A DNA stretch of 27,853 nucleotides from a virus: IMG/VR virus record IMGVR_UViG_3300045953_000275, positions 1 through 27,853 of that record; one strand, given 5' to 3'. Shown here piece by piece: positions 1,408 to 26,672 of the stretch. Every line of letters begins with the position of its first letter. Within the stretch, counting starts at the first letter, position 1. The position numbers and the translations under genes were made by a program. Below the pieces are notes generated by a model, which saw nothing but the letters and a program-made list of their open reading frames with translations, was not told the DNA's origin and did no database searches.

Positions 1408-1431
1408 GGAATCGGGTCGAAAATCGGGTCG
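1408..1431 (-). repeat. Two 12-bp direct repeats (CGACCCGATT plus two bases)
   Basis: On the minus strand two tandem 12-base units, CGACCCGATTTT then CGACCCGATTCC, lie at the outer end of the left long inverted repeat. A degenerate third unit (CGACCCAATCCG) lies at 1293-1304. The same unit is present in three tandem copies at 26663-26698 on the plus strand. They look like binding sites for a protein acting at both ends of the late operon. Confidence 0.55.
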
Positions 1432-1521
1432 CCTTTGGGCGAAACCCGCGGGCCGCTCGCGAAACGCAGAGCGATAATTTCGTCCGCGATCCGCGGCCCC
1501 CCACAGCGGAGAATCGGGTAA
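1422..1521 (-). repeat. Left copy of a diverged 100-bp inverted repeat
   Basis: Read on the minus strand, this block begins TTACCCGATT, contains TGTGGGGGGCCGCG and CGAAATTAT, and ends TTTCGCCCAA, three bases, CGACCCGATT. The plus strand at 26573-26672 carries the same blocks in the same order with identical spacing. By hand alignment about 69 of 100 positions match without gaps. The conserved blocks are separated by segments that have diverged almost completely, which suggests selection on sites rather than recent duplication. This copy sits directly behind the last tail gene. Confidence 0.7.
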
Positions 1522-1578
1522 TCGCCTTCTTTCACGCAGACCAAAGTGTGGTTAGTAAACTACACACCGAAGGCGATT
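1520..1578 (-). terminator. Nested hairpin after the last tail gene
   Basis: A 10-bp outer stem (AATCGCCTTC at 1520-1529, GAAGGCGATT at 1569-1578) encloses a second hairpin of about eight pairs built from GTGTGGTT and AAACTACAC, with one G-T pair. It lies 38 bases behind the stop codon of the 360-residue tail gene. It has no T-run, so if it ends the late transcript it would do so as a processing or stabilising structure. Its left arm overlaps the TTACCCGATT end of the long inverted repeat by two bases. Confidence 0.45.
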
Positions 1579-1616
1579 GAAGAGTGCCAATTGGCAAAAG
1601 TTTGGGCGAAATTATT

Positions 1617-2699
1617 TCAGAAGAGCTTCGCCGCGGCGTAATTCGGAATCAAGTTCGCAGTTGCCCACCAATCGACCGCGGCGTTTGGCAGATCCGTGTG
1701 AATGCGAATGCGGTACTTGTCGTTCTCGTTCGCGGCGAATTGCCACGACGCTCGCAGATGATGCCAGAAGTAGTCGTGCGATCCGAACGATCCGATACCA
1801 CGCGGCACGATGTCTGCGTTGAGCGTATGCGTGTGCGAGTTGAGGCTGTGCGAGTGCGGATCCGAACCACCGGTCCCGGTGTTCGTCGGCGTCGGACCGC
1901 CGGTCACCGCGTTCGATAAGAACTTCCAATCCATCAGTGAGGTATCGAGCGTGATCCAACTCTCCCATCCGCTGCCTACGTCGCGGGAAACTTGAAGGCG
2001 AGCATCGACGTGCGTTGCCGGCGAGACACCGCTAAGGATGTATTCGATTCCGACGTTGACGTCCACCTCCAGAGAGTAGAGCACACCAAGCAATCCGCCT
2101 CCGCCCGCCTTCGCAATGATTTTGATTTCGGTTCCGCTTGCCTCCGTCGTTACCAAGCGGTGGCCTTCGTTGATGCCGAGTACTCCCCATGGGATGAGCG
2201 ATGGAATCGTGGTGACCCCGAGTCCCGACTGAACGAAGCTAGACGCGTACCATCGCGGAACGCGGATCGGACAGATGGTCCAGACGTCGTTGAACTTGAA
2301 CGCCCGAGCCCACTCGTTGTTGTTGAACTTGAACGGAGAAGAGTTGTAGACTTTCTGAAATGACGTGAGCCCGGACCAACTCACGTCGCCGCTGACCGCG
2401 TCCACCTTCGGAGCGTAGAGTGCGGCCAGACCGCTCGACATTACCGCACCCGGCGGTCCGTCGTGCTGTGACGAAAGTGGCGTGCCGGGAATGCCGTTCA
2501 CCTCCTGGATAAAAGCCAATGCATAGGATTGGAACGGCTCCGCATTGTCCACCGAGAGTGTCGGGCCGGCGGGACCGTTGTTCAACTGCAAACCAGGAGC
2601 GACGTTCAACCGCTCAGACCACTCGACGCGGTCGCACATCTCGTTCCACATCTCTGCGGAGACACGGTCGCCTTGCTTCAGCCGGCGAAGCTTTTTCAT
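1617..2699 (-). CDS. Putative tail fibre / distal tail protein (360 aa)
   Basis: This is the last gene of the late operon. It starts MKKLRRLKQGDRVSAEMWNE, with an N-terminal helix (GDRVSAEMWNEMCDRVEW) typical of small phage structural proteins. A beta-rich middle follows, then a Gly/Thr-rich hinge near residues 265-280 and a histidine cluster, HxH-x4-HxH, at residues 282-291. Such HxH arrays bind metal ions along the axis of trimeric fibres, for example in the T4 short tail fibre. The C-terminal third is rich in aromatic residues, as in a receptor-binding tip. The start overlaps the preceding stop codon by 4 bp. Position after the tape measure supports a tail-tip or fibre role. I do not recognise the family. 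Confidence 0.6.
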   Translation of the reverse strand: MKKLRRLKQGDRVSAEMWNEMCDRVEWSERLNVAPGLQLNNGPAGPTLSVDNAEPFQSYALAFIQEVNGIPGTPLSSQHDGPPGAVMSSGLAALYAPKVDAVSGDVSWSGLTSFQKVYNSSPFKFNNNEWARAFKFNDVWTICPIRVPRWYASSFVQSGLGVTTIPSLIPWGVLGINEGHRLVTTEASGTEIKIIAKAGGGGLLGVLYSLEVDVNVGIEYILSGVSPATHVDARLQVSRDVGSGWESWITLDTSLMDWKFLSNAVTGGPTPTNTGTGGSDPHSHSLNSHTHTLNADIVPRGIGSFGSHDYFWHHLRASWQFAANENDKYRIRIHTDLPNAAVDWWATANLIPNYAAAKLF

Positions 2700-3508
2700 G
2701 TCAGCAGTTCCTTCAAGTTCGCAGTCTCGTATGGAGGAGTCGCACCAGTCGTCGCGTTCCGGACCGGCTCCCAGACGAGAGTGTCCGGGTTGAGTGAGTT
2801 GTTCCAGCCATGTCGGTTATAGATGAACTTCCCGACGAACTTCCAGCTCTTATCTCCCAGGAGTGTGACCGAGCGGTTCACGTTCGGACCATCGAATAGG
2901 ACGGTCTCCGGTGCTCCACCGAATAGCGTCGCGGAGTTGACTTTCCCAACCATATCTTGGATGGTAGTCCACTTCGGTTTCTTGACTCGTGGGAGCTCCA
3001 TCGTATAGGTTACGAGCGGGAGTCGGATATTGCGATTCGCGGTTTTGCGTTGAGCTGCTGGGATACCGGTCGATCCGATCTTTACCGGTACCGTGAGGAT
3101 CTCGCAAGAGTAGTCGAGCGATTGCGTCAAGAACGTAATGTCTTCGGGGCCGTCGCTCGCGTCGTCTTCTTCCCATGGCGGGACTGAATACTTGATCGTG
3201 AGCTTCGCCTTCGCATAGAAGGGGCCGGTGTCCCACGAACCGTTGCCCATCTCGCCATGTGGTTCGACGTCGACGCTGCTGCAACGCAGTCGAGTAAACG
3301 GAAGGAAGACGTCCGCTCCGACTCGGACGTCCTTGCCGTTCGCATCTTGGTAGACGTAGCCCATTAGGAACTGGATCGATGGGATGAGATGGGCTCCGTC
3401 GCAGACTGCGATCCGCGTCGCACTCGCGGAATCTTCCGTGAAGCTAAGCTTGCCGCTACCTTCAATCTCGACGAGCGACGACGGTTGAGGAAACAGATTA
3501 AGTGCCAT
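2696..3508 (-). CDS. Putative distal tail / baseplate-type protein (270 aa)
   Basis: A 270-residue soluble protein starting MALNLFPQPSSLVEIEGSGK, with no export signal. It is mostly beta by pattern (alternating hydrophobic residues, for example LTIKYSVPPW, MELPRVKKPKW) and contains an acidic loop EEDDASDGPED. It begins one base inside the stop codon of the tape measure gene and overlaps the following fibre-like gene by 4 bp. In siphovirus late operons the gene after the tape measure normally encodes the distal tail protein or tail-tip hub, and length and strand content fit that class. Nothing in the sequence proves it, so the assignment rests on position. Confidence 0.55.
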   Translation of the reverse strand: MALNLFPQPSSLVEIEGSGKLSFTEDSASATRIAVCDGAHLIPSIQFLMGYVYQDANGKDVRVGADVFLPFTRLRCSSVDVEPHGEMGNGSWDTGPFYAKAKLTIKYSVPPWEEDDASDGPEDITFLTQSLDYSCEILTVPVKIGSTGIPAAQRKTANRNIRLPLVTYTMELPRVKKPKWTTIQDMVGKVNSATLFGGAPETVLFDGPNVNRSVTLLGDKSWKFVGKFIYNRHGWNNSLNPDTLVWEPVRNATTGATPPYETANLKELLT

Positions 3509-5160
3509 TATGGTCCGACTCCAGAGCTGCCCTTGACAGCGTCAACGAGTTCCTTGTGGTTCGTATCGTTCTGTTGGACGAGCTTCTCAACGCCCAACGC
3601 GGTCGCTTCCGCCATCTGGGCGGTCTTCTTCGCGGCGTCTTCCTCGAAGCGGCCCGTGAGATTCCGCTTGAACACCTCCTCCAAACCACTGATCGATGCC
3701 TTGATCTCCTTCGCCTTGCCGCCTCCTTCGAGCGAGTCGAACATCTTTCCGATATCGAGCGATTCGCCGATTCCTTCACCGGTCTCTTCAGCGGACTTCT
3801 CCATCTTCTGCAAGCGGTCCGACCACTTCTGGCCGTGTTCCTCCCACCGCTTGCTGAAATCGGTGCCTTCGAATTTCTTGAACTCCGGTGCGGTCGCGAA
3901 CTCCTTCATGTCCTGCTTCATCAGACCGATGATCTCGTTGAAGCCTTCGCGTCCGCCGGTCTTAATCATCCGCCAGAGATTCTTCCAGATCGCCCCGAAG
4001 TTGTTACCGACGTTCGTCCAAAGCTGGAGGTAGTTCTGCCCGGTCGTCTGGGCGATGTCCCAGAAGTTGTTGAAGAACCATTCGATGTACGCCCATGCGT
4101 TGTCGGCGAACCACGCGACGCGGTCCGCAATCCCGGTCACGACTTCTTCAACGGTCAACGACGCCATCTCCCAGTAGAGGTCGAAGTTCGATACGACTTC
4201 GATCGCGGCGTAAACGGAATCGACGACGTACTTCGCCCAGTTCGCGAATGTCTCTCCCCAGCCCCGCAACGCAGTCGCGTTCTCCTGGATGAAAGCAATG
4301 CCGTCCTTGGTCATGCCCATGAAAACCTTCAGGGCCGGGATGAGGATGTTGCCGATCTCCACGCCAAGGTCCGAGAGAGCGGCCCACAATCCCTTGCTCA
4401 TGTTGGCGAACGAGTCGGCGGTGCGTGTCGCGTCGCCGCTCGCGTCCTTCGTTCCTTCCAGGATCATGTTGAGTCGAGCGAGGACTTTCTGCTGCTCCGA
4501 CGCCGCGGCAGTTCCGCCGGCGACGCCCATCTTCATGAGCTCTGCATTGAGCGTGGTTTCGTTGATGATCACGCCATACTTCCGGACCGCTTCCGCGTTG
4601 CCAATCAAGGCGGACTTGAATCCCTCCATGACCTCAGTGTCCACTTCGTTGTTGAAGCTGGCGACGTCAGTCGCAAGCTTGGTCAACGTAACGGACATCA
4701 TCGCCCCTTGGTCGTTGGTAAAGCCCATCGGGCGGAAGAGAGCTTGAATCCCCGAAGACATGGTGTAGAGATCTAGCTTCGACCGCCCGACGGACGCACC
4801 AAACTCGTCAAGAGCTTTGCGAGCGGACACGGCCCGGTCGCCGAAGACGTAGTCGAACTTGCTGCCGACTTCTCCCATGTCGCTCGCGAGACCGATCGAT
4901 CCGACCGTTACGGATTTGATCAAGGTCAAGAGTTGTGCCAGCCCCATCGTCGCCATGTTCCACGCTTGGTTGAGCATGACTCCGAAGAGAGCGGCGGAGC
5001 GGCCCATCGCGGAGAAGCCTTCGCGTGTATCCTTCTCCAGCTTATCCATGCCGCGGCGTGCGTCGTTGAGTTCCTTCTCGACGTTGTCGAGCGACCGCAG
5101 GAGCTGCTGGTCGCGTGCTTCGATCCGAAGCATCAGACTGCCGGCGTCGAACGCCATCAT
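3508..5160 (-). CDS. Tail tape measure protein (550 aa)
   Basis: This protein sets tail length during assembly and is later ejected with the DNA. The N-terminal 60 residues (AGSLMLRIEARDQQLLRSLD, then a helix ending KLEKDTREGF) resemble the coiled-coil start of many tape measures. Hydrophobic, Gly/Ala-rich helices follow (MATMGLAQLLTLIKSVTVGS, IGNILIPALKVFMGM). A Trp/Phe-rich membrane-like stretch lies near residues 330-400, and the C-terminal part is charged and coiled. It starts seven bases after the end of the frameshifted chaperone, the standard place. The usual rule of about 1.5 angstrom per residue gives a tail near 80 nm, so this is a short tape measure. Confidence in the class is high from order and composition. 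Confidence 0.85.
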   Translation of the reverse strand: MMAFDAGSLMLRIEARDQQLLRSLDNVEKELNDARRGMDKLEKDTREGFSAMGRSAALFGVMLNQAWNMATMGLAQLLTLIKSVTVGSIGLASDMGEVGSKFDYVFGDRAVSARKALDEFGASVGRSKLDLYTMSSGIQALFRPMGFTNDQGAMMSVTLTKLATDVASFNNEVDTEVMEGFKSALIGNAEAVRKYGVIINETTLNAELMKMGVAGGTAAASEQQKVLARLNMILEGTKDASGDATRTADSFANMSKGLWAALSDLGVEIGNILIPALKVFMGMTKDGIAFIQENATALRGWGETFANWAKYVVDSVYAAIEVVSNFDLYWEMASLTVEEVVTGIADRVAWFADNAWAYIEWFFNNFWDIAQTTGQNYLQLWTNVGNNFGAIWKNLWRMIKTGGREGFNEIIGLMKQDMKEFATAPEFKKFEGTDFSKRWEEHGQKWSDRLQKMEKSAEETGEGIGESLDIGKMFDSLEGGGKAKEIKASISGLEEVFKRNLTGRFEEDAAKKTAQMAEATALGVEKLVQQNDTNHKELVDAVKGSSGVGP

Positions 5161-5167
5161 CCGTCTC

Positions 5168-5874: not shown

Positions 5875-5924
5875 GATTCAGGTGTCCGAGATTGGGGATG
5901 GGATTGTTCGCGGGCCGGCGTCTA

Positions 5925-6335: not shown

Positions 6336-6346
6336 CGTGTTCTCCT

Positions 6347-6778: not shown

Positions 6779-6779
6779 G

Positions 6780-7846: not shown

Positions 7847-7856
7847 GGTTCGCGTC

Positions 7857-8455: not shown

Positions 8456-8492
8456 GATTGAGTCTCCGTTGTATTGAGTGTTCGAGAAGAAT

Positions 8493-8553: not shown

Positions 8554-9750
8554 CTAGGCGTTGTAGACCTTCACGACCTTCCGCGGCTCGATGACCGCGG
8601 GAGCACCACGCTCGCTGGCCTTCCAGCGGAGCACGATGTCCTGCGTGAACTCGGGTTCGCTGTTCGACGGAGCCTGGACCACCGTCAGCGGCCAGTTCTC
8701 CATCCACGTGAACGCACCCTTGAAGTCGCCCATGAACCACCAGTGGGCCGCGTCGGAAGCCGACACGCCGCTGGCGATGAGCCGGCGATACATGAACTTG
8801 CTGAAGGTCAGCTGGTAGTTCTGCATCGTGTTCGGAGCGTCGCTGATGACGACGCCCGACTGCGTGCGGACTTCGTGGCGAGTCGCGTTGAGAACGCGAC
8901 CGAAGATGTGCCGACGAACCGGCATCGCGACGATCTGGTTCGCGTTGAGCACGATCGGCTCGCTGGTGTTCGGTTCGAGCATGTTCAAGAAGAGCTGCTC
9001 GACCTCGTCCACCTTCGTCCAATCGAACGCGGTCACACCGGAGTCGACGCCGGACTTGACGTTGATCCACGGAGTCGCGGTCTGGTACGTGTTGTAGGTC
9101 GTGCCCCGCCACTTGAAGGTGTTGGTCACGCCCAGGATCATGTCCCAAATCCGCTTCTCCTTCCGTCGCATCAAGACCTCGCCGACTTTGCCGGCTTGAG
9201 CGAGGACAAGCTTCGTGCGGTCGAAGAAGAGAGTCTCCTTCGTGACCGACACGATGCGGCCCTTCTTCGTGGTCGCCGGCGTCTCGACGTAATCCTCGTT
9301 GAAGCCGATCTGCGGATACGGCATTCCTTCGTGGATGTTGTCGTCGATGTCGTCGGTGAAGCCGGTCACACCGGGGATCTTCTCCCCATTGAGATCCGTC
9401 TTCGTGTTGTCGATCAGGGCCGCAGCCATGAACTCTTCCTGCTGGTAGCCCTCCATCACCCGGTTGTAGAAGATCTGCCCGGTGATGTTGCTGAAGCGGG
9501 AAAGGTCGATGCCGCTGGCCTGCGATTCGAGCAACGTCAAGCCGCCGCTCTTCTGCGGGCCGAGTGCCCGAATCCACTCGTGTCCGACCGCGTGGCCATC
9601 GCGATCGACGACCAAGCACTCCGCGAGGTCGCGAAGGCTGAAGTCGTCCGGCTTGAAGACCTTCTCCGTCAAGCCGGTCTGAAGGTGGCGGACAGCTTCG
9701 TCCGCTCCCTTCGCTTCGACGAGTTGTCGAATTTTCTTCACGTTCAACAT
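8554..9750 (-). CDS. Major capsid protein, HK97 fold (398 aa)
   Basis: The shell subunit of the head. The ATG at 9748-9750 (MLNVKKIRQLVEAKGADEAV) is chosen because AGGAGA lies about eight bases upstream; the longer frame lacks a site. Residues 120-175 (EGMPYPQIGFNEDYVETPAT, then KGRIVSVTKETLFFDRTKLV) match the E-loop and spine region of Mu gpT-like HK97-fold capsid proteins. Further phrases include a P-domain helix and ANQIVAMPVRRHIFGRVLNA. The C-terminal part is rich in Trp/Phe (WWFMGDFKGAFTWMENWPLT), with an A-domain-like finish VVIEPRKVVKVYNA. It sits behind the protease/scaffold and decoration genes, the classical order. Length is normal for this family. Confidence 0.85.
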   Translation of the reverse strand: MLNVKKIRQLVEAKGADEAVRHLQTGLTEKVFKPDDFSLRDLAECLVVDRDGHAVGHEWIRALGPQKSGGLTLLESQASGIDLSRFSNITGQIFYNRVMEGYQQEEFMAAALIDNTKTDLNGEKIPGVTGFTDDIDDNIHEGMPYPQIGFNEDYVETPATTKKGRIVSVTKETLFFDRTKLVLAQAGKVGEVLMRRKEKRIWDMILGVTNTFKWRGTTYNTYQTATPWINVKSGVDSGVTAFDWTKVDEVEQLFLNMLEPNTSEPIVLNANQIVAMPVRRHIFGRVLNATRHEVRTQSGVVISDAPNTMQNYQLTFSKFMYRRLIASGVSASDAAHWWFMGDFKGAFTWMENWPLTVVQAPSNSEPEFTQDIVLRWKASERGAPAVIEPRKVVKVYNA

Positions 9751-9814
9751 GAGCTCTATCTCCTGGAATGAATTGTTGGAATGGAAACGAACCAGCCAGC
9801 GGGTGGGCCGCGGA

Positions 9815-10294
9815 CTAGGCCATGACTTGAGCACCGCCGCTCATGACGCGGCTGAACACTTCGACGAAGACCTTGGTCGTGTTCGAACCGTACCGCTTCG
9901 CGACGCGGCCGATCGCCAAGTTCTCGGTCGCGACCGCCACGACCTTCTGCTTCTCCAGAGCGTTGCCGGCCTGCTTCGCCGGCCCGACCAGAGCACCGAG
10001 TTCGAACGTCGCGGCGGCACAGTCAAACTCGTGCACGCCGGCGGTGTTCACACGGATCGGGTTGGTGTCGCCATTGCGGCTCCGCTCTTGAGCGACGCCA
10101 AGGAACTCGTCGTGGAATTCCTCCTGCGTCGTCGCAAGGTTGGTGTTCCAGACATGGTCGGCAGCGGAGGCCACGGCACCGTTGGTCTCCATCTCAATGA
10201 GGTCGCCGACCTCGATGACGGTCGCCGAAGCGACCTCTTTCGTGACCACCGGACGGCAGTCACCGTAGTGCCAAGACTGAGCACGATCGGACAT
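9815..10294 (-). CDS. Putative head decoration protein (159 aa)
   Basis: A 159-residue soluble protein starting MSDRAQSWHYGDCRPVVTKE. Its beta pattern (VIEVGDLIEMETNGAVASAA, a short helix, then DEFLGVAQERSRNGDTNPIR) resembles the DUF2190/lambda gpD-like decoration or head-stabilisation class, in which a strand and a 'G-D-L-V' turn are followed by 'F-L-G-V-A'. It lies directly between the protease/scaffold gene and the capsid gene, where decoration proteins are normally encoded. It ends in an Ala/Gly-rich strand. Family assignment is by pattern, not by a search. Confidence 0.7.
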   Translation of the reverse strand: MSDRAQSWHYGDCRPVVTKEVASATVIEVGDLIEMETNGAVASAADHVWNTNLATTQEEFHDEFLGVAQERSRNGDTNPIRVNTAGVHEFDCAAATFELGALVGPAKQAGNALEKQKVVAVATENLAIGRVAKRYGSNTTKVFVEVFSRVMSGGAQVMA

Positions 10295-11657: not shown

Positions 11658-13139
11658 TCAGATCGTGGAAACAAGCCGGGCCGTAACGAAGATGATCTTG
11701 CCGCGGGTCGCATCGAAGATCATTACGTCTTCGCTGCCGTCCAGGTTCCGGACGTAGCCGAGGATCTTCCCGCTGCCGCGGTTCTTCCCTTGACGGTACT
11801 GGACGCGAGCACCGATCGTCAAGCCGCGGCGGGCCGCAAGTGTGTTACTCGGCAGCTCCTTGACGACCCGCTCTCCATCCTTGCGGGTCTTCGGAACGTC
11901 GATCTTCTTTCCTTTCTTCGTCGTGACCTGCTGTGTCTTCTTTCCGGAGAGGATCTTCTGCTTGCCGCGTTCAGCCGCTTCCGCTTTCTGCTTCTCAACC
12001 TTCAGCTTCTCTTGCTTGGCGTGCCACTCCCGCGTACCGACAAGCTTCGCGTTCTGCTCCGGCGTCGCACCACGAATGCCAGCCCTGAACTTCTTCGGTT
12101 TGCCGGCCCGCTCCGCATCGCGAAAGCGGCGAAGCGTCTTCTCATCGACGTCGTGTTCGATATCCTTGACGGTCGGCTTCATTTTGCCTGGCTCTTTGAC
12201 CGTCGCTTTCTTGACGTCCATCCCCTCTTGCAGCACCGGAGCGTACCCACATCGGCAGTTCGGTTCATCCGGTAGCGATGGTCGCGACGCCGCGGAGTAC
12301 TTCGCTCCCTTCGGCTTGTGTCCTTCCTTCCAGTAGATACGACCGCGGAGACCATTAGCATTCTCTTCGGTTGCTCGCTTGCGATGGTGCGGTCGAGTTA
12401 CCTCGTCGAGCGGATTGATGACGCGGTAACCAACGATCAACTCCGCGTAGTTCTCGAAGCTCTTCTCCGCGACTTCATTGTGGATGCGGGCCGCTTCCGT
12501 TCTCGCGATTCGCATCGCGGAGCTGGACAGGTTGCGGACATGCGGCTCCAGCTTCTTCGCAATCTGCTCCAGCGATTCACCTTTCGCCACACCCTTCGCG
12601 ATGATGTCGGCGACCTCCTTCTTATTCGTGATCTGCTTCGACCACTTCTCCATCCGCTCCTTGTACTTGCCGCTCTTGATGATCTTCGTTGCGACAGTCG
12701 GAGTCAGCTTCTTCTCTTGCGTATACTTGACCTTGCGAGCGGGGCCGGGATCCGGCGGCAGTGGGAGGATCTTCCGATCCGCGGGCCAGTCGTCTGTACG
12801 AGCGAGCAGGTCCTCTGCTTCGACCAGCTCCGCCTGCTCCTGGGAAATTGAGAGGAACATCGCCCGGTCGGTGGCCGCGAAGCTGGAGCGAGCGGTCCGA
12901 TCGAACTCTCTTCCCAGGAAGTTCACGATCTCCGCGGTTGCGGCCCGGATCGAATCCTTGAACCGGGTTGTCAAGCCGACAGCGGTCCCGCCTTTATCCA
13001 AGTGCTTGAGGATCTCCCGCCAATGCTTGATGACGATCGCTCGACAAGAGCGGGCAACGTCGTCGCTTTCGTACGCCATCTGGACGTACGCCCGCTCCAA
13101 TGCGAGGCGGAGACGTTCGCTGTTGGTGGAGTCTTTCAT
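11658..13139 (-). CDS. Mu gpF-like head morphogenesis protein (493 aa)
   Basis: A minor head protein of the Mu gpF / SPP1 gp7 family, which acts with the portal in head assembly and early infection. The core is at residues 195-305: VRNLSSSAMRIARTEAARIH and NEVAEKSFEN, then a turn with D-E-V-T-R-P-H and finally PDEPNCRCGYAPVL. The ARTE, TRPxH and CRCG elements are the family's hallmarks. After residue 310 comes an unusually long Lys/Arg-rich tail ending in a small beta domain (GLTIGARVQYRQGKNRGSGK). The gene overlaps the portal gene by 4 bp (ATGA). That basic C-terminal extension is not usual for gpF and may bind DNA. Confidence 0.85.
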   Translation of the reverse strand: MKDSTNSERLRLALERAYVQMAYESDDVARSCRAIVIKHWREILKHLDKGGTAVGLTTRFKDSIRAATAEIVNFLGREFDRTARSSFAATDRAMFLSISQEQAELVEAEDLLARTDDWPADRKILPLPPDPGPARKVKYTQEKKLTPTVATKIIKSGKYKERMEKWSKQITNKKEVADIIAKGVAKGESLEQIAKKLEPHVRNLSSSAMRIARTEAARIHNEVAEKSFENYAELIVGYRVINPLDEVTRPHHRKRATEENANGLRGRIYWKEGHKPKGAKYSAASRPSLPDEPNCRCGYAPVLQEGMDVKKATVKEPGKMKPTVKDIEHDVDEKTLRRFRDAERAGKPKKFRAGIRGATPEQNAKLVGTREWHAKQEKLKVEKQKAEAAERGKQKILSGKKTQQVTTKKGKKIDVPKTRKDGERVVKELPSNTLAARRGLTIGARVQYRQGKNRGSGKILGYVRNLDGSEDVMIFDATRGKIIFVTARLVSTI

Positions 13140-14830
13140 TCGCTACCGACCATCGATTCAGCTTCTTCGCGGCTTCGCTTGAAGAAGACCATCATCGCAT
13201 TGATCGCTTGCTCGCGATGGATGACGCCTTCCTTTAGCTTCGCCATAATCTCCAGGTACCCGGTGATACCGCCTGCCATGTTGAGCAGAGCGGCTTCCGG
13301 TTCTGTTGCGGCGACGACGTCTTCTGCCGGCGGGATGTAACCACCGCCCGCGGCTCCGAGATCCGGTTCGTCGCCCATCGGCAGGGCACCGCCTTCAAGA
13401 TGTGCCTGATCGAACTCATCGAAGTTCTTATCCTCTTGTGTGGTGTCGAGACCGAGTTCACCGCGGATGGTCTGCGGCGACTTGATCCGCTTCTCGACGT
13501 ACTTCGTATTGGCATCCGCGGTCGCGACCGGGTCGCGAGTAACTAATTGCGGCGGCTCCACGCAGATCTCGAAGTTGTCCGCACTACATTCACGCGGCAG
13601 CACATTCGCGTCAATGGCGTATTCAATCGCAGCCCAGATAAGCTCAAGGTCCGCTTCGATCGTGTCGGCTTGTTCGCTTTCGAAGAAGCGGACCGCCGGC
13701 GATTCGGCAACCATGGTGCTTGCGTAGTTCGCGTTGCTCGCATCGCTGCCGATCATGTACTCCGCGAGAGCCTTGCTGGATGCGATCGCTCGCAGCTCCG
13801 CACCAAGGACCGCGGTCCCATCCGCGGCACTGGAGTTGAGAGAAGGGAATTCGTATTCAGTGTCCTTGGTCGCGTCGATTACTGAACCGGGTCGGATCGG
13901 TTTGCCGCGGATAACCTCTTGCGTCACCGGATTTGTGTACGAGATCTTGGCTTGCGACGAAGCGAAGTTCCGAACGTTCGACGACGGTTTGTTATGCCGG
14001 CGGATCATCGCGATCGCGGCCCGTGTCTGAAGTAGCTGGCTCATGTTGGTGAGCAGCTGCTTGCCGCGGTCCAGGTTGTGGGCGATGCAAAAGAACGAAC
14101 TCAAGCCGCGTTTGCAGTTAACGTCGACATTCGCTTTGCGGTGCTGGACTTCATGGGCTGGTACCTCCTCGCCATCGACGAAGTACATCTCAACCGTCTC
14201 GACGTCTTCCGGATCGGTCTTGATCCCATACGACGCGGACTGCTCCGCCTGCCACTCTGGCGGTGTCGTCACTTGACCCGGCTCGACGAAGCGGAAGCGG
14301 GCGTACCCGTCTCCCTGGGGAAAGATACGGATAAAAACTTCTCCGTCTCGCTCGAAGCGGGTCCGGATCTCCTTCTGCCGGCGAGTCCACTTGTTCGCCT
14401 TCAGCAACTGGTCGATGAAGTTCTGCAGCTTGCGGCGGTGTGGCTCGAAGCGGGCGTCGTAACCGGCGACGTACTTTGCTTTAATCTTGACTTGGTACGT
14501 ATGCCCCTTGCCGACGATGAACGAACGCATGTTCGTCAGGTAGCCTTGTGCGTACGGATTGCGGGAGATCTGCCGGCTCTTGATTCGAATCCGCCGATGG
14601 TCGTGTTCAGTCTCCCACGGCTCCGTCTGCTCGTGGTTGTATCCCATCTTGCCGACCGGGTCCCATGGTTCGCCAGTCGCGTCGTCGATGTACGCGGCCC
14701 GCTTGTCCACCAGATTGTCGAGCCAATCCCACTGCGACTCAAGCAGCTTCATCTCCAGCTCCAGGGACCGCCGCTCGATGGCTTCGGTTAGGTCCACAGT
14801 GCTCTGTCGCTTCTTCAACTTAACGGCCAT
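13136..14830 (-). CDS. Portal protein, lambda gpB-like (564 aa)
   Basis: The dodecameric ring at the head vertex through which DNA is pumped. It starts MAVKLKKRQSTVDLTEAIER and has the gpB-like order: an N-terminal helical arm, RKIxSRQISRNPYAQGYLTN at about residues 85-105, the WTRRQKEIRTRFERDGEVFI strand-helix (residues 148-167), and HRKANVDVNCKRGLSSFFCI (231-250), matching the 'R-G-L/V-S' turn. The TTAAP-like clip and stem region follows, and FESEQADTIEADLELIWAAI lies in the C-terminal part. It ends in an acidic/Gly linker and a C-terminal helix. It overlaps the terminase gene by 11 bases. Length is typical. Confidence 0.88.
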   Translation of the reverse strand: MAVKLKKRQSTVDLTEAIERRSLELEMKLLESQWDWLDNLVDKRAAYIDDATGEPWDPVGKMGYNHEQTEPWETEHDHRRIRIKSRQISRNPYAQGYLTNMRSFIVGKGHTYQVKIKAKYVAGYDARFEPHRRKLQNFIDQLLKANKWTRRQKEIRTRFERDGEVFIRIFPQGDGYARFRFVEPGQVTTPPEWQAEQSASYGIKTDPEDVETVEMYFVDGEEVPAHEVQHRKANVDVNCKRGLSSFFCIAHNLDRGKQLLTNMSQLLQTRAAIAMIRRHNKPSSNVRNFASSQAKISYTNPVTQEVIRGKPIRPGSVIDATKDTEYEFPSLNSSAADGTAVLGAELRAIASSKALAEYMIGSDASNANYASTMVAESPAVRFFESEQADTIEADLELIWAAIEYAIDANVLPRECSADNFEICVEPPQLVTRDPVATADANTKYVEKRIKSPQTIRGELGLDTTQEDKNFDEFDQAHLEGGALPMGDEPDLGAAGGGYIPPAEDVVAATEPEAALLNMAGGITGYLEIMAKLKEGVIHREQAINAMMVFFKRSREEAESMVGSE

Positions 14831-16442
14831 AGTTCACCTCAAGTGTGTCTCCGATCCCGTCATCGAACGAGACCGTCTCACCAAGTAAATCCAACGCAAT
14901 GCGGGTCGCCATCTCCGCGGCGTCCGGCCCGTCGTCGTGGTCGCCATTGGGGAAGTCGCGTGTTTGTTCGTGAAGCTTCACAGCTCCCTTGCTCCCCGAG
15001 CGAAACCGGATTCGTCTCTTCGCCAGAAGCGGCGACAGCCGGCGAATGCGGACCTTCTTATTGACTCGATTGTCGATCTTCTCGATCGGGACATCCACGT
15101 CCGCTTCCCGCATGGCTTCGGAAATGTCCTCTGCGAGCAGCTCTTGGAACTGGTTGACTTCGCAGCCGAAAGCAGTAGGTCGGAATCTTCGTAGGATCTC
15201 GACTGTGTCGTCGACGATCCGGTCTGTAGAACGACGGTCGATGCTTGCGTCGAAGTAGAAGATACCACGATGATCGACAACGAGCTTAACGATTGCTGAG
15301 GGATCACCATGCCGAGCGTCCTTTCCTTTCGACGGGTCGAGAGCGACGACGCGGGCCGCGTGTTCGGAGACTGGCGGCCAGTCCTTGAACCAGAGATCGT
15401 CGCCTTCGAAGTACTCCTCTGGCCATTCGCATGTCTCGGGATTGAGCGGGTTGCCCTGCTTCTCCGCTTCGAATTCTTGATGGCCCATCTCCGCTCGCAG
15501 CTTCATAAGCATGTAGAGCGGTTCGCGATCTGGCCACAGAAGCTCGCAACCTTTCTCCATCTCTCGTCGATTCTTCCGGAAGAATTCAGCCGCTCGCTTC
15601 TCGTACTCTGGGTCGTCGACGTCGAAGTAGATCGACTCCCACTTCGCCCAGAGATCCATCCGGACAGGCCACTTCACGATCGACTTGAAGACCGCCGGCT
15701 TGAGACTCAAGTCGCGGTGCGTCTGCCAACCGGACGTCCGCAGAAGCTTCATAACAAGGCAGTCGCGATGGATCGCGGTGCCCATCGCGAGGATGTTCGT
15801 CTTGTCGTCGCCCATCGATAGGAGCGTGCGATTGAACCATGTCCGGACGCGGTCCCGCATCCGCGTCGAAGTAATGTGCTCGTCGTTCTCCGGATCGTCA
15901 ACGATGATGAGCGAAGGACGATGCTGCCGCTTGCGAGCACCGCGAATCCTGGAGAGAGTACCGACGGCCCGGATGACGCAGCCATTCCGCATCTTGATGT
16001 ACTTGTCCTGCCAGATCGGGCCGACGCCGCAGGCTTCCGGATAGTCCGCGGCGAGAGCGGCGTTGTCCTCCAGTTCCTCCTTGATGGAGCGGATGTGGTC
16101 AACCGCTTGCGTCACGGTGTCGGACGAGATGATGATGTACGACTCGCGACCAGAAACGGCCCGTCGCAGCGGGAGCGTCAACGATCCGGTTGTGCTCTTG
16201 GCTCCGCCACGCGGGCCGACGACGGCAATCCTGCCGCCGCGTCGATCGAAGCTTTCGTCCGCCTTGCGTCCGATCCAGCGGTGCATGCCGCTGGGTTCGT
16301 TCACGTAGTAGTGCGGGAGATAGTGCTTGCCCCAAGGAAGCAACGACAGCGAGTCGGACGCAGGCGGTAGATACCCCGCGAACCGACTCGCAGCCATGCG
16401 ACGGAACTCCCGCACACCGGTCTGGACGACGAACCTACGCAT
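14820..16442 (-). CDS. Terminase large subunit, ATPase-nuclease (540 aa)
   Basis: The motor that pumps DNA into the head and cuts it. The ATPase half shows a Walker A motif GPRGGAKST (residues 76-84) after a beta-strand, and a Walker B motif LIIVDDPEND (178-187). The Q/C-motif region SDTVTQAVDHIRSIKEEL lies between. The nuclease half has RVVALDPSKG with D369 as first metal ligand, GCEVNQFQELL with E428, and NGDHDDGPDAAEMATRIALD with D505/D508. The gene overlaps the upstream gene by 8 bases and reaches the portal gene. The large subunit class follows the terminase_6/gp17-like order. Length is normal. Whether the phage uses cos or headful packaging cannot be told. Confidence 0.92.
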   Translation of the reverse strand: MRRFVVQTGVREFRRMAASRFAGYLPPASDSLSLLPWGKHYLPHYYVNEPSGMHRWIGRKADESFDRRGGRIAVVGPRGGAKSTTGSLTLPLRRAVSGRESYIIISSDTVTQAVDHIRSIKEELEDNAALAADYPEACGVGPIWQDKYIKMRNGCVIRAVGTLSRIRGARKRQHRPSLIIVDDPENDEHITSTRMRDRVRTWFNRTLLSMGDDKTNILAMGTAIHRDCLVMKLLRTSGWQTHRDLSLKPAVFKSIVKWPVRMDLWAKWESIYFDVDDPEYEKRAAEFFRKNRREMEKGCELLWPDREPLYMLMKLRAEMGHQEFEAEKQGNPLNPETCEWPEEYFEGDDLWFKDWPPVSEHAARVVALDPSKGKDARHGDPSAIVKLVVDHRGIFYFDASIDRRSTDRIVDDTVEILRRFRPTAFGCEVNQFQELLAEDISEAMREADVDVPIEKIDNRVNKKVRIRRLSPLLAKRRIRFRSGSKGAVKLHEQTRDFPNGDHDDGPDAAEMATRIALDLLGETVSFDDGIGDTLEVNYGR

Positions 16443-17959: not shown

Positions 17960-17960
17960 A

Positions 17961-18272
17961 TCAAGTTCTCCTTGCTGTGCGGTTGACGATCGCAGTACAG
18001 AATCGCAGCACCGCAATTGCAATTGAGCCGAACATCACCATGGCGACGAGCTCACGGATTGTTTTCGGCAACCTCCACCATTCGTTCAGACCGTTCCAGA
18101 ACTCGGACCAGCGGGTGGACGCCGACGAGTCGCGGCCCTGCGGCGGATCGTTTGGACCACGGTCTCTTGTGAAGAACCGCCACCGCTCCGCATGTTCTCG
18201 ACGAGTTCTCGCAGGTAGGTCGCGATCTGATCGTCGAGCGAACCGGGTGTCGTCTTTGCTCGCATTTCCCAC
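17961..18272 (-). CDS. Possible small membrane protein, start uncertain
   Basis: An open frame of 103 codons with a GTG start and a hydrophobic segment at its end (LVAMVMFGSIAIAVLRFCTA). Its first half overlaps the C-terminal code of the thioredoxin-like gene and is Arg-rich, so it is probably not translated. The plausible gene is the part after the upstream stop at 18086, giving about 26-45 residues with one membrane segment. No good ribosome site precedes any candidate start, and the stop lies within the leader of the Cys-rich gene. I report it as tentative. Confidence 0.3.
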   Translation of the reverse strand: MGNASKDDTRFARRSDRDLPARTRREHAERWRFFTRDRGPNDPPQGRDSSASTRWSEFWNGLNEWWRLPKTIRELVAMVMFGSIAIAVLRFCTAIVNRTARRT

Positions 18273-19201
18273 GCACGCAATGCAACCAATGCGAACAAAA
18301 GTAGGATCTGCATTCCGCTTCCATTCGAGAACAAACGCTCTAGGATACCCCCCTGCTGCGGCGTCGCTGCGACTTGTTGCTGCATATCCGGCGGGAAGTT
18401 GAGCGGCTGGGGAGGACGCGGCGTGAACGGGTCCGCTGTCGGCACCGTGAACGGTGCCTGCGTCGCCCCTGCCGTAGGGTCCGATGGTGCCTCCGGTTCA
18501 TCTTCATCCGCTTCTGCACCCTCCGCAGATGCTCGATACGGAGCTGGCCGCGGGTAACCTTCCGCTGCCATCTTCGCGGCGTATGCACGGACGTCCTTCG
18601 TGAACCGCTCCGCGAGCTTCTTCGGATTGCCGTCGTACCCGGTGTACTGTGCGACGACCGTCTTCGCCGGCCCCCACGAATCATTCCGCGGCGGCTGGAT
18701 AACGATCGTCGGGGTGCCGTGTACGAAGTACCGCTTGAGTCGATCCTTCTGCGTCTCGTCGTGAATGTCGTAGACGTTGAAGTGGGCCCATGCTTTGTGC
18801 GGCTCCGGTGCTTCGATGAACGCCTTCAGGAAGTCGCTCGTGCGGAAGTCGCTGATCAACTGGTCGCACGGAGGACAACCCTTCTGCTTGAACACCGAGA
18901 TGAACCACATGTGGTTGTCATCGGGCGGAGGGGCCGTCGCAGAGATGACCGCATCCTGCGTTGCTCCACGCGGCCCTTCGCCGGCGACGACGAGGCTGTT
19001 GCCGCGGCGGATCGCTTCCGACGCATGCACCTCGACGACACCGAAGTTTGGCTGCTCCGGCTCATCAAGCTTCGGCTCCTCCTTCCGAGGCTCCAACTTG
19101 CCGACGCTTGGTACGGTCTTCTGCTCGACATTGGGGGTTTGTCCCCAGGAGATGCTTGAGACTGCGAGCAGTCCCATGAACAATCCGATCTTCTTCAACA
19201 T
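18086..19201 (-). CDS. Exported thioredoxin-like protein with CPPC motif and C-terminal membrane segment (371 aa)
   Basis: A signal peptide (MLKKIGLFMGLLAVSSISWG) leads into a thioredoxin-like domain: MWFISVFKQKGCPPCDQL has C109-P-P-C112, and HGTPTIVIQPP (161-171) supplies the cis-proline loop after the central strand. The surrounding strands and helices fit the fold. A Pro/Glu-rich linker (residues 215-285) follows, then a hydrophobic segment (MQILLLFALVALRAWE, 297-312) and a basic tail. This is a membrane-anchored oxidoreductase or binding protein acting outside the cytoplasm. It is in the exported-protein group before the packaging genes. CPPC is a reactive-disulfide motif, but its substrate is unknown. 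Confidence 0.75.
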   Translation of the reverse strand: MLKKIGLFMGLLAVSSISWGQTPNVEQKTVPSVGKLEPRKEEPKLDEPEQPNFGVVEVHASEAIRRGNSLVVAGEGPRGATQDAVISATAPPPDDNHMWFISVFKQKGCPPCDQLISDFRTSDFLKAFIEAPEPHKAWAHFNVYDIHDETQKDRLKRYFVHGTPTIVIQPPRNDSWGPAKTVVAQYTGYDGNPKKLAERFTKDVRAYAAKMAAEGYPRPAPYRASAEGAEADEDEPEAPSDPTAGATQAPFTVPTADPFTPRPPQPLNFPPDMQQQVAATPQQGGILERLFSNGSGMQILLLFALVALRAWEMRAKTTPGSLDDQIATYLRELVENMRSGGGSSQETVVQTIRRRAATRRRPPAGPSSGTV

Positions 19202-19806: not shown

Positions 19807-19808
19807 AG

Positions 19809-22848: not shown

Positions 22849-22850
22849 CG

Positions 22851-23298: not shown

Positions 23299-23312
23299 CG
23301 CGACCTCCGCGA

Positions 23313-23349
23313 CCCGCCCGCTCCCAGTCATGATCCGAGAGCGGGCGGG
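23313..23349 (-). terminator. 11-bp GC hairpin in an intergenic gap
   Basis: Arms CCCGCCCGCTC and GAGCGGGCGGG enclose a 15-base loop between the 212- and 85-residue genes. The 11 pairs are all complementary. There is no T-run, so partial termination or mRNA processing seems more likely than true termination. The hairpin lies just before the ribosome site of the 85-residue gene and could mask it. Confidence 0.4.
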
Positions 23350-23363
23350 GCCGGTTAGCGGAT

Positions 23364-24002
23364 CTACTCGTCGACTTCTTCCCACTCGATGCCGAGGGCC
23401 GCGACCACGAAGGCGGCAGCGTTCGCGGCGAGAGCGAGTGCTCCGCCGGGCGGGATGCAGATCGAGCCGTTGAGGTCGTCGATCTGCTGCCAGGGAGCGT
23501 TCGTCTGAGCAGCGGTCTGGGCGACCTGCGAGACACCGTGCGGCATCAAGTAGGTCATCGCGACGACTGTCGCCGCGGTGACGAGCCGGGCCGCGGAGCC
23601 GGATGGGCTGGCCGCGTCTTGCAAGCGGGCCGACTGGATGAGGGCCGCGGTGCCCGAGACCGCATTAGTCAAGAGCGTGTTGGTCGCGTAGCAGAAGTGG
23701 CCCGCGACCATCGTGCCAGAGATGTAGCCGATCCGAGTGCGGAGCACGTGGAAGAGCTTGCCCGAGCCGATCGGATTGTGAAGGACGAACTGCTGCGTCG
23801 TGTTGCTGAAGATCGGCACTGTGACGCCGGCAGCAGGCGTCGAGCCGATGAAGATCCGCCGGCGAGCGGCCATCTCCGAATAAATGCCGCGGACGTTCAT
23901 TGCGGACGACTCGCCATAGCGGCCCCGCCACGCTTTGATCTCCGCTCCGTCGGGTGCTCGCGTCTGCGGCCCCACGACGCCAAGGACTTGTTGATCCGAC
24001 AT
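23364..24002 (-). CDS. Putative virion surface protein (212 aa)
   Basis: A 212-residue protein starting MSDQQVLGVVGPQTRAPDGA. It is Ala/Gly/Thr-rich and beta-dominated, and ends with ICIPPGGALALAANAAAFVV and ALGIEWEEVDE. The phrase 'P-P-G-G-A-L-A-L-A-A-N-A-A' plus a final I-x-W-E-E strand is typical of Planctomycetes and related phage surface proteins that I recall as jelly-roll or decoration-like. I cannot verify a family. There is no signal peptide or membrane segment. It sits with the other virion proteins of the fibre region, and resembles the 183-residue gene between the terminase genes. Confidence 0.6.
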   Translation of the reverse strand: MSDQQVLGVVGPQTRAPDGAEIKAWRGRYGESSAMNVRGIYSEMAARRRIFIGSTPAAGVTVPIFSNTTQQFVLHNPIGSGKLFHVLRTRIGYISGTMVAGHFCYATNTLLTNAVSGTAALIQSARLQDAASPSGSAARLVTAATVVAMTYLMPHGVSQVAQTAAQTNAPWQQIDDLNGSICIPPGGALALAANAAAFVVAALGIEWEEVDE

Positions 24003-24067
24003 ACCGTGTTCTCCTGGAAGTGGTTGAGTTGAGAGTCAGCTCCGGGAGGAGCCGGCGGCAGCTTGGA

Positions 24068-24460
24068 CTAGTCGAGCGTGACGTCGATCTCGCCGGCGTT
24101 GAACTTGGGCGTGTCGCCATTCGTGATGGACTTGCTCGTGGTCAACGCACCGTGAGCCAGCATGTTGCCGGCGGACGACGCATCGAAGAGAGCGAAGTGG
24201 GTAATCGTTCCCCACGAGCCGCTCGCGGTAGGGAAGGTGACCGCGTTCGTGTTGGCGGTCGCACCGCTCGCGGCGGCGTCCCAAGTGTTGCAGAGGGTGC
24301 GGGCGTAGTTGTTGCCCGAAGGTTCAGCGATCGAGCCACCGCTGTCCGTCGGATCCGCGGTGCTCAGTGCGACGTAGATGTTCGTCGGCACCGTGAAGCT
24401 CGCGACCTTGAACACGTGGTCGAGCAGCTTGTTCTCAAGGTAGTTCGAAAAGGATCCCAT
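24068..24460 (-). CDS. Phage tail-fibre-family protein (130 aa)
   Basis: A 130-residue protein starting MGSFSNYLENKLLDHVFKVA. The opening SNYLENKLLDHVF, the phrase VPTNIYVALSTADPTDSGGS, and GTITHFALFDASSAGNMLAH with the closing GALTTSKSITNGDT match a widespread phage family usually annotated 'tail fibre protein', in which the pattern is Y-V-A-L-x-T-x-x-P-T-D, then W-G-T-I-T-H-F-A-L-F-D. It is beta-rich, with no export signal. GGAGGT precedes the ATG, and a 336-base non-coding stretch lies upstream, so it probably begins a transcription unit for the fibre region. The name comes from recalled family resemblance. Confidence 0.72.
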   Translation of the reverse strand: MGSFSNYLENKLLDHVFKVASFTVPTNIYVALSTADPTDSGGSIAEPSGNNYARTLCNTWDAAASGATANTNAVTFPTASGSWGTITHFALFDASSAGNMLAHGALTTSKSITNGDTPKFNAGEIDVTLD

Positions 24461-24796
24461 GTAGACCTCCGTTCAAATTGCAATAGGACACTGTACAGTG
24501 CAACGTCCTCAAGCGGGCGGGTGTTTCGCAACACTCCGCCACGACGTCCCAACGAGCCTCCGACGCCAAGTCCGGACTCAACATCGACGCTGAAACTCCG
24601 CTGCTAGAGGTGCCGCATTCTCAGGCTGAGATTCTCCCGGAGAAACTGAAATTCCCCAAAAGGTCTTTCAGGCGGGGCCGCGAGAACGGAGCGGCGAGAG
24701 GACTTATGAAATTGCAAATTGCAAGATGCCGGCGTGCATCAGCCGGCCCCGAGCGAAGAGAATGCTCCAGGGGCCGCGTACCGTAAGGGAGCGGCG
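24461..24796. promoter_or_regulatory. 336-bp non-coding stretch with palindromes
   Basis: No credible gene is seen. The stretch carries a perfect 12-bp palindrome CACTGTACAGTG at 24489-24500 just upstream of the tail-fibre-family gene, flanked by AGGAC/GTCCT arms at 24485-24489 and 24505-24509. It also has two adjacent 13-bp palindromes with one central base (TCTCAG-G-CTGAGA at 24619-24631 and TTCTCC-C-GGAGAA at 24632-24644), a repeated 15-mer at 24657-24671 and an ATTGCAAATTGCAA block near 24710. A promoter with operators for the leftward fibre and head genes is the likely role. No clear -35/-10 pair was found. Confidence 0.45.
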
Positions 24797-25021
24797 TCAG
24801 GGGTGCTTACCGCTTGCCAACTCAATCTCTGTGCTCGTGCTCTCGCCGCGGAGACGCACGTTACTGAAGACTGCGGAGTGGAATTCCCGCCCATCGAACC
24901 AGCCGACCTCATACTGTACGTGGAGCGGCGGGCCGATCATGATGACCTTGAGTACGTTGCCGTTGACCGGGTCATCGACCGGACCGACATCGACTTCACT
25001 ACCCGGCTCGATTATGAGCAT
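24797..25021 (-). CDS. Small hypothetical protein (74 aa)
   Basis: A 74-residue protein starting MLIIEPGSEVDVGPVDDPVN with GGAGCC-type ribosome site (GAGGGAGCC) next to the ATG. It is beta-rich: V-x-V strands (VLKVIMIGPPLHVQYEVGWF), a FDGREF turn and two further strands, so a small OB- or SH3-like barrel is likely. It overlaps the previous gene by 23 bases. The pattern I-x-G-P-P-x-H-V-Q-Y-E-V-x-W-F-D-G is reminiscent of small phage proteins that read 'W-W-x-D-G' at a barrel end. No known function. Confidence 0.6.
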   Translation of the reverse strand: MLIIEPGSEVDVGPVDDPVNGNVLKVIMIGPPLHVQYEVGWFDGREFHSAVFSNVRLRGESTSTEIELASGKHP

Positions 25022-25223
25022 GGCTCCCTCCGAATATGCGAATGCGAATGAACGACTGGACGCTTACCTCTTCGGCTTCGGCCAGCTCGTTCAAGCGGGC
25101 CGCTTCCTCTTTTGTCAATCGGACAAGGACCTGCTTGTCCCGAATCGGCAGCTTCCCGCGGACCTTCGCCGCGAGAGCTGCTTGACGTTCGCCCCATCGT
25201 TGGGATTGTTCGAACTGGCTCAA
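24999..25223 (-). CDS. Possible ribbon-helix-helix DNA-binding protein (74 aa)
   Basis: A 74-residue protein starting MSQFEQSQRWGERQAALAAK. After a basic helical N-terminal part comes KQVLVRLTKEEAARLNELAE, then SVQSFIRIRIFGG: a short beta-strand followed by two helices with hydrophobic residues at the expected spacing. This is the layout of ribbon-helix-helix (CopG/MobC-like) DNA-binding proteins. It overlaps the next gene upstream by 4 bp. If it is a repressor or relaxase accessory protein, the palindromes between 24461 and 24796 are the closest candidate targets. The fold is assigned by eye. Confidence 0.5.
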   Translation of the reverse strand: MSQFEQSQRWGERQAALAAKVRGKLPIRDKQVLVRLTKEEAARLNELAEAEEVSVQSFIRIRIFGGSHAHNRAG

Positions 25224-25675
25224 GGCTTCGACTCCTGGGATGAACCAGTGTTGCCGGGCCGCTTCGGACGATCCGGCGGCACCGGTTCGAGCGGAAGGGC
25301 CGGCGTGAAGGGTTGGACCTCCATGTCGATGCGAGTGCGGACCGGTTCAGGCTGGATGAGCAGCTCGCGTCCGTCCGGCAACACATAGCGGATCTCAACC
25401 ATCGTCACGCTTGTCGTGACTCCGTCTGCGTCGATTGCGGCCACCGATTGCTCTGATGCAGAGATCTTCGGCTTGCCGTCTTGATCGACCCAACCGAACT
25501 CCCGAGCCTTCGTCGCCCAGTTGTTCGAGTCCACGTACGAGCTTCCGTTGCCGAGCAGCGATGCGATGAGCATCGCCAGCAGTCCGTACCACGTCCAGCT
25601 CCCAGCCTTGCTTGGTTGGGAGTTGACGGAGACGGAAACGGAGCCTTCGGATCCTTGCCTTGATGGACTGTCCAT
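25220..25675 (-). CDS. Hypothetical single-pass membrane protein (151 aa)
   Basis: I start at the ATG at 25673-25675 (MDSPSRQGSEGSVSVSVNSQ) because AAAGGAGAG lies just upstream; a longer frame continues through the preceding gene. It has a polar N-terminal part, a membrane segment (TWYGLLAMLIASLLG, residues 28-42), then a soluble domain with ISASEQSVAAIDADGVTTSV and VRYVLPDGRELLIQPEPVRT. It ends in a Pro-rich tail. This is a membrane-anchored protein with the bulk on one side. Overlaps the RHH-like gene by 4 bp. I do not recognise the family, and a virion role is not shown. Confidence 0.6.
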   Translation of the reverse strand: MDSPSRQGSEGSVSVSVNSQPSKAGSWTWYGLLAMLIASLLGNGSSYVDSNNWATKAREFGWVDQDGKPKISASEQSVAAIDADGVTTSVTMVEIRYVLPDGRELLIQPEPVRTRIDMEVQPFTPALPLEPVPPDRPKRPGNTGSSQESKP

Positions 25676-25713
25676 GTTCTCTCCTTTCATATCGGTTCTT
25701 GAGTTGACGGACA

Positions 25714-26427
25714 CTAGACTTGATCGCTCGCTTGAGACGATCCTTCTGTCGCTTCGCCATCGTCCTTGACCTCCTCTCCGACGACAGACGCAAGGGGATG
25801 TGCACAGGGGCCGTCGTGGCCTTTGTTGCGAGTGCAGGCTGCGTAGCCCGGTGTCGGCGGTACAAAACCGCACGGTATGTCCATATCATCGAACATGCCG
25901 CCGGTCGGTTGCTGCATCGCCGACTCGACGCTCGTGTCGGGGCCGCACCACTTTGGATAGTTCGCTTGCGAGAGCCGCCGCGAGAGCTCGCGGCACTTCG
26001 CTGGATGCATTGGGTATGTCCGCTTGGCGACGCCGCACGGTAAGCAGACGCCGGTGCGGTCCTTGTACGAGCAGTACCCGCAGTCCTCGCATGGTCCATA
26101 TGCGAGCCGCGGCTCCTTGCCATGCTCGACGATCCACACCATTGCGGACGACGGCCAGTCGCCGCGTTCGAGACTGGCTTCATGTGCGTTGTTGATCGCG
26201 GATTCAAGATCGGTCTCGTAGCTGCGGCGAGTCCGCGTCCGACCGTCCTTCTCGTATTCGCGTTCCCAGAAGAACGCGGCGTTGATGACAGGCGGATCCC
26301 AAGCCGCCTTGCGTGCTCGTCGAGCTGTGAGCCACTGCTTGTAGAGACGACGCCAAAGATAGGCGACGAACTCGAAGGCGACGACACCAAGCATACACGC
26401 CACGATGATCAAGAAACCAGTAAGCAT
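25714..26427 (-). CDS. Membrane-anchored Cys-rich protein (237 aa)
   Basis: This is the first gene of the late operon. The N-terminal MLTGFLIIVACMLGVVAFEF is a membrane anchor, followed by a basic segment (YLWRRLYKQWLTARRARKAA) and a soluble domain. Two Cys groups stand out: GPCEDCGYCSYKDRTGVCLP at residues 111-130, a zinc-ribbon-like C-x2-C-x2-C...C-x2-C arrangement, and IPCGFVPPTPGYAACTRNKG followed by HDGPCAH (185-210), a motif pattern I recall from Cys/His-containing proteins. A ribosome site AGGAG precedes the ATG, with a promoter-like TATACT about 95 bases upstream. Metal binding is inferred from Cys spacing. Confidence 0.6.
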   Translation of the reverse strand: MLTGFLIIVACMLGVVAFEFVAYLWRRLYKQWLTARRARKAAWDPPVINAAFFWEREYEKDGRTRTRRSYETDLESAINNAHEASLERGDWPSSAMVWIVEHGKEPRLAYGPCEDCGYCSYKDRTGVCLPCGVAKRTYPMHPAKCRELSRRLSQANYPKWCGPDTSVESAMQQPTGGMFDDMDIPCGFVPPTPGYAACTRNKGHDGPCAHPLASVVGEEVKDDGEATEGSSQASDQV

Positions 26428-26520
26428 CGCTGCTCTCCTATTTCGACCAAGATTCCTGAAATGGGCACCTTTCGATCGCCATCGGGTGGCGATTCTGATT
26501 CCAGATTGTGGGTCGCGTTA

Positions 26521-26526
26521 AGTATA
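26521..26526 (-). promoter_or_regulatory. Possible -10 promoter element TATACT
   Basis: On the minus strand TATACT lies about 95 bases upstream of the first late gene. It matches the sigma-70 -10 consensus at five of six positions. No convincing -35 was found at 16-18 bases, so the promoter, if real, probably needs an activator. The long inverted repeat begins 47 bases upstream of it. Confidence 0.35.
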
Positions 26527-26572
26527 TCCGTTTGAAACCACGATGAGGGGGTAGGCGGTGGGGTGGGGGTGG

Positions 26573-26672
26573 TTACCCGATTACGCACTGTGGGGGGCCG
26601 CGAATGTTGGGCGAAATTATTGTCCTCATTTTCTAGGCTCTTTCTTGCATTTCGCCCAACTTCGACCCGATT
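26573..26672 (+). repeat. Right copy of the diverged 100-bp inverted repeat
   Basis: Begins TTACCCGATT and ends CGACCCGATT on the plus strand, with shared blocks TGTGGGGGGCCGCG, CGAAATTAT and TTTCGCCCAA in the same order and spacing as the left copy at 1422-1521 (minus). It contains its own inner inverted repeat (TTGGGCGAAAT/ATTTCGCCCAA). Its inner end faces the start of the late operon, and its outer half overlaps the 3' part of the CsrA-like gene. Confidence 0.7.

Follow-up and report, generated by a model that had tools for sequence, protein, structure and literature searches.

Among the systems that resemble the locus described here, the ends at which transposase binds in Mu-like phages and in Tn7-like elements carry several protein-binding sites each, are inverted relative to each other, and are similar but not identical. 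In Cluster A mycobacteriophages, the stoperators and operators bound by the L5 repressor are asymmetric and dispersed at promoter and intergenic positions; more than 20 single 13-mers are present, their orientation follows transcription, and reversal abolishes repression (PMC9283540). Here, we have analysed a virus record of 27,853 bases, IMGVR_UViG_3300045953_000275, which is probably a fragment and is called the window throughout, and in which two similar noncoding stretches of about 120 bp, copy A and copy B, stand in opposite orientation at the two boundaries of the late gene block:

1408..1526, minus strand (read from 1526 to 1408): copy A, in noncoding DNA that separates the last tail gene from a block of small genes
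26568..26686, plus strand (read left to right): copy B, noncoding, upstream of the first late gene

We tentatively read the pair as two diverged copies of one noncoding regulatory element with multiple protein-binding sites, placed at the boundaries of the late block, and give this reading a probability of about 0.4.

Aligned without gaps, positions 1521-1422 of the minus strand and 26573-26672 of the plus strand agree at 69 of 100 positions, exactly as counted by hand in an earlier sequence-only reading, which had put the gap-free agreement at about 69 of 100 and had held a chance match to be very unlikely. The alignment and shuffling that it proposed as a check, here run by computer, support both statements: in 80 dinucleotide-preserving shuffles of the window, the top inverted 100-nt match per shuffle was 52-60, the best of them thus standing at 60 against the 69 observed, and the runner-up inverted 100-nt match in the window itself was 57. 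On the same diagonal the agreement extends to 83 of 119 ungapped positions (~70%), covering 1408-1526 (minus) and 26568-26686 (plus). A repeat search of the window returned the two halves of the pair at ranks 1 and 2 of 174 inverted pairs, BLASTN of one copy against the window gave 70% identity over 114 nt (E = 3.4e-10; a BLASTN value of 3.6e-10 applies to copy B), and gapped local alignment of both noncoding regions, while adding few extra columns, scored 97, whereas 200 shuffles reached 39 at most. No third full copy was found in the window, where the next best place fits 39 of the 83 conserved positions.

The agreement between the copies is concentrated in perfect runs of 10, 15, 9, 10, 10 and 10 bases, whereas in a middle stretch of 28 nt (match columns 54-81) 10 positions agree; altogether there are 18 identity runs, fewer than the permuted mean of 25.8 (p = 0.0008). 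Identity clustered in blocks around 28 unrelated nucleotides is not the pattern that once-identical repeats would show after uniform decay. The element is not a coding relic either, since half of the mismatches are transversions (18, next to 18 transitions) and they are spread evenly over the codon positions (12, 11 and 13) without periodicity; in the same test, two of the three forward frames contained a stop in one or other copy. One internal symmetry was seen:

26606..26660, plus strand: perfect 12-bp inverted pair GTTGGGCGAAAT / ATTTCGCCCAAC, inside copy B

This 12-bp stem, together with the ~70% complementarity that the copies would have on one leftward transcript, would suit an element acting as RNA, with the leader and trailer of the late transcript pairing over a long range or with each copy folding into a conserved structure. 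We regard this as very unlikely, however, as the corresponding stem in copy A has lost three of its inner ten pairs with no compensating change, RNA folding of copy B does not stand out (z = -0.68) and that of copy A is modest (z = -2.25), and no Rfam family matches the element. A constant spacing of the sequence blocks, with no structure conserved, points instead to protein-binding sites on DNA, a suggestion drawn from two copies.

Further copies of the same motifs accompany the pair:

26665..26696, plus strand: three ACCCGATT units at 12-bp spacing (26665, 26677 and 26689), in or beside copy B
1602..1616, plus strand: solo motif TTGGGCGAAATTATT, a 15-nt exact match to copy B, adjoining the stop codon of the last tail gene
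1287..1304, minus strand: CGACCCAATCCGCGGCCC, which nearly repeats CGACCCGATTCCGCGGCCC from the outer edge of copy A (1401-1419)

Two more ACCCGATT units lie in copy A (1422 and 1410), and the 7 found in the window, compared with 1.0 expected by shuffling and a largest shuffle of 4, all sit within the two elements or adjoin copy B. Exact copies of ACCCGATT (7), CGAAATTAT (3) and GGGCCGCGNAT (3) are all inside the elements or no more than ~125 bp from them. Tandem ACCCGATT units every 12 bp would also be compatible with replication sites such as origin iterons, and the opposed asymmetric copies recall fork traps, which consist of opposed asymmetric sites and would here act as facing polar fork barriers; yet no replication gene was recognised in the window and 12 bp is not the helical repeat, which leaves a role in replication improbable.

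Of the three explanations that the sequence-only reading had offered, paired sites for one regulator fit best, because of the 9-15 bp blocks at fixed spacing, the noncoding edges, the solo motifs and a possible regulator gene, while a mobile or satellite-like module found no support. The conserved 9-15 bp blocks would be occupied by a DNA-binding protein, probably a regulator of the phage, for example the product of a gene just past copy B. Bound at copy B, the protein would influence the start of late transcription; bound at copy A, it would affect the point where the late transcript meets the following block of genes, which is expressed differently. As the copies are oppositely oriented and transcription runs in the same direction at both, the element cannot simply serve as a promoter in the same way at the two sites; an operator or an enhancer-like, orientation-independent site would be needed.

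Copy B lies in the gap on the upstream side of the first late gene, and the further genes to its right also point leftward:

26877..27503, minus strand: protein of 208 amino acids with a region like the C-terminal domain of the RNA polymerase alpha subunit (alpha-CTD; residues ~140-205), the candidate regulator near copy B
27487..27852, minus strand: open-ended partial gene, helix-turn-helix (HTH)-like by eye, with no Pfam or PHROGs match
26631..26874, minus strand: possible small gene whose 3' end would overlap copy B, an open reading frame (ORF) only, with no family match

The protein encoded at 26877-27503 matches Pfam PF03118 with 25 bits, above the curated cut-off of 23.8, and its best match among the alpha subunits in the PDB has an E value of 1.7e-5. 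The alpha-CTD-like region stands alone in a phage protein in which an alpha N-terminal domain was not detected. The residues of the alpha-CTD that contact DNA are R265, N268, G296, K298 and S299 in E. coli numbering; when the phage protein is aligned to the PDB alpha subunits, the equivalents of R265 and G296 are kept and the other three are replaced. No relatives of this protein were found in the phage collection or the viral contigs with the scans used, and a search of one library of papers returned no paper on phage alpha-CTD regulators or on planctomycete phages. A more elaborate arrangement, in which the alpha-CTD-like protein would bind the pair in opposite orientations and join or insulate its two sites, one at either end of the late block, which would then be switched on as a single unit, seems improbable to us.

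Several points weigh against paired regulatory sites. Sites that serve two transcription units running in the same direction do not usually face opposite ways, no sigma-70-type promoter was found at either copy, and the alpha-CTD-like protein retains the DNA-contact residues only in part. The confinement of the motifs to the elements is partly circular, because they were taken from the copies themselves, and their independent weight is therefore limited to the extra copies. Moreover, no homologous element was found in a related phage, so that the constraint is inferred from two copies within one genome.

Copy A lies in a gap of 830 bp after the last tail gene, one of the few large noncoding gaps of the window, in which no gene was recognised. 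Two hairpins flank the element:

1334..1353, minus strand: leftward terminator-like hairpin with a T run, downstream of copy A
1520..1578, minus strand: hairpin AATCGCCTTC / GAAGGCGATT with a perfect 10-bp stem, between the tail gene and copy A

The DNA fold of the hairpin at 1520-1578 (z = -3.31) beats all 200 shuffles, and terminator-like sites in the region are only slightly more numerous than in shuffles (3 compared with 1.7), which makes the terminator call weak. To the left of the terminator-like hairpin follow small leftward genes, most of which are preceded by a start-associated sequence of about CCTTCC(C/T)nnGGAG, reminiscent of the start-associated sequences known in some mycobacteriophages. 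The signal occurs at minus-strand starts at 46, 346, 622 and 786 of the window, and at 303, 757, 1716, 2252 and 2837 of the overlapping contig IMGVR_UViG_3300045968_000444. The late genes are without it and show an ordinary start signal or none; as the start signals differ on either side, copy A lies at the border of two kinds of genes.

The same contig, which stems from the same virus, is the sole other carrier of the element found; it includes copy A, ends before copy B, and shows no difference from the window in the stretches compared from position 355 onwards. Positions 1-354 of the window and 1-2845 of the contig hold different genes, the two sequences diverging abruptly at ~355, immediately upstream of where a gene begins, for which mosaic exchange, a population variant or an assembly junction are candidates. 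Degenerate patterns of the element, searched in 2.9 million viral contigs, recovered the same virus only, besides chance-level matches, and in 84,980 genomes they gave one chance-level match, located in an Opitutae metagenome-assembled genome (MAG) without accompanying motifs and at about the chance rate; 388 genomes of the phylum of this MAG contained one 29-nt match. Phage and plasmid records held nothing convincing for the element. A match in Erwinia phages, lying in hypothetical genes and spanning 27% of the query (E = 1e-3), was judged to be chance, and a further locus, in which one block matched, was set aside as sharing no genes or other motifs. Scanning for tandem ACCCGATT units returned 19 stretches, about the estimated chance expectation, while the other motifs occurred in the same-virus contig only. 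Relatives of the terminase were found at 41 loci, the closest of which (65-68% identity) are too short to reach either boundary, and the element is absent from the more distant ones. In a single-protein scan, the genes flanking the copies had no relatives in the viral contigs except in the same virus.

These searches bear on a serious rival, namely that the pair is a dispersed noncoding repeat, REP- (repetitive extragenic palindrome) or MITE-like (miniature inverted-repeat transposable element) and derived from the phage or its host, which was copied twice into intergenic gaps and brackets the late block by chance, without any joint function. Two such copies have a one-in-two chance of opposite orientation, dispersed elements would land in the 830-bp gap of copy A because few large noncoding gaps exist, and fragments of the same motifs lie near copy A. 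On the other side, there is no third full copy in the window and no convincing copy in the collections scanned, the block pattern suits constraint more than neutral decay, and the element is, by inspection, without terminal inverted repeats of its own. The sequence-only reading had named a common genome-wide intergenic repeat as the outcome that would overturn it; none appeared at the sensitivity used, with two copies in the window, and the search of related phages and genomes that it proposed yielded no convincing extra copies. The genome pattern scan demanded exact matches at 19 positions, so that a diverged host repeat could escape it. On balance, we consider a dispersed repeat possible but doubtful.

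The genes enclosed by the pair all point leftward and are predicted to form a siphophage morphogenesis block, that is, a late block of head and tail genes, with terminase, portal, Mu F-like head, cement-like, capsid, tail-completion and tape-measure-like proteins:

25714..26427, minus strand: first enclosed gene, with a membrane-helix-like start (ORF and sequence; no family match)
14820..16442, minus strand: terminase large subunit (phrog_38, E = 1.2e-83; Pfam Terminase_6C)
13136..14830, minus strand: portal protein, lambda family (PF05136; phrog_21)
11658..13139, minus strand: Mu F-like head morphogenesis protein (PF04233; phrog_115)
8554..9834, minus strand: major capsid protein (PF25209)
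3508..5160, minus strand: tape-measure-like protein (phrog_31409 and phrog_28918)
1617..2699, minus strand: last enclosed gene, putative tail protein (ORF after the tail genes; no family match)

Within the block, 18086-19201 (minus strand) encodes a thioredoxin-like protein with a signal-peptide-like start (Pfam Thioredoxin_2, E = 4.7e-5, below the family cut-off), and the ~1.25 kb at 24461-25713 hold overlapping ORFs on both strands, including a plus-strand ORF of 220 codons, with no clean gene assignment. The enclosed 25 kb had been described in the sequence-only reading as exactly the leftward run of genes. This did not hold: the pair does not delimit that run, since leftward genes continue outside both copies, with the alpha-CTD-like gene and the HTH-like partial gene beyond copy B, and beyond copy A the small genes, which continue in the overlapping contig.

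This arrangement also speaks against a mobile or satellite-like module of 25 kb whose ends, the two copies, a transposase or integrase would recognise. Their inverted orientation and multi-block make-up, which recalls the ends of complex transposons, would fit such a module, and the terminase is 34% identical to those of JBD24 and FP_Mushu, which are transposable phages. However, the phage-like genes run on beyond both copies, and the interior genes are only structural or unassigned: no recombinase (transposase or integrase) was found among the annotated interior genes by Pfam and PHROGs on the main ORFs, a search that covers 24461-25713 incompletely. No target-site duplication longer than 4 bp was seen, with one 4-nt coincidence across the candidate edges at 1395-1423, and the ends are only ~70% alike over 119 nt rather than near-identical. 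We consider such a module quite improbable, and the pair is not usable as evidence of mobility. Least probable of all is that the copies are inverted recombination sites which flip the 25-kb block; the inverted orientation and the nearly unrelated stretch within an otherwise conserved element could be taken that way, but no recombinase was seen in the window, inversion of the entire late block would make it run against its leftward neighbours, and IMGVR_UViG_3300045968_000444 has the same orientation across copy A.

If the copies are indeed paired regulatory elements, they would provide candidate sites of late control, together with a candidate regulator that carries an alpha-CTD-like domain, and thereby a concrete target for binding and reporter tests in a phage group whose flanking genes yielded no close relative.

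Compared with the Cluster A stoperators, the elements are likewise predicted, here from sequence, to be asymmetric sites at promoter and intergenic positions of a phage genome. They depart from the stoperator pattern of many short intergenic sites oriented with transcription, forming instead two multi-block elements of ~120 bp in opposite orientation relative to genes of the same direction. With the ends of Mu-like phages and Tn7-like elements the pair has in common that it is inverted, multi-block, and similar but not identical; it differs in that no transposase was seen and no target-site duplication is present, and in position, as phage-like leftward genes extend past both copies, which therefore do not stand at physical genome ends as in Mu. 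The candidate regulator, finally, differs from the RNA polymerase alpha subunit in lacking a detected alpha N-terminal domain and in the replacement of the other DNA-contact residues, while residues ~140-205 resemble the alpha-CTD (PF03118), and on the DNA face the key arginine and also the conserved glycine align.

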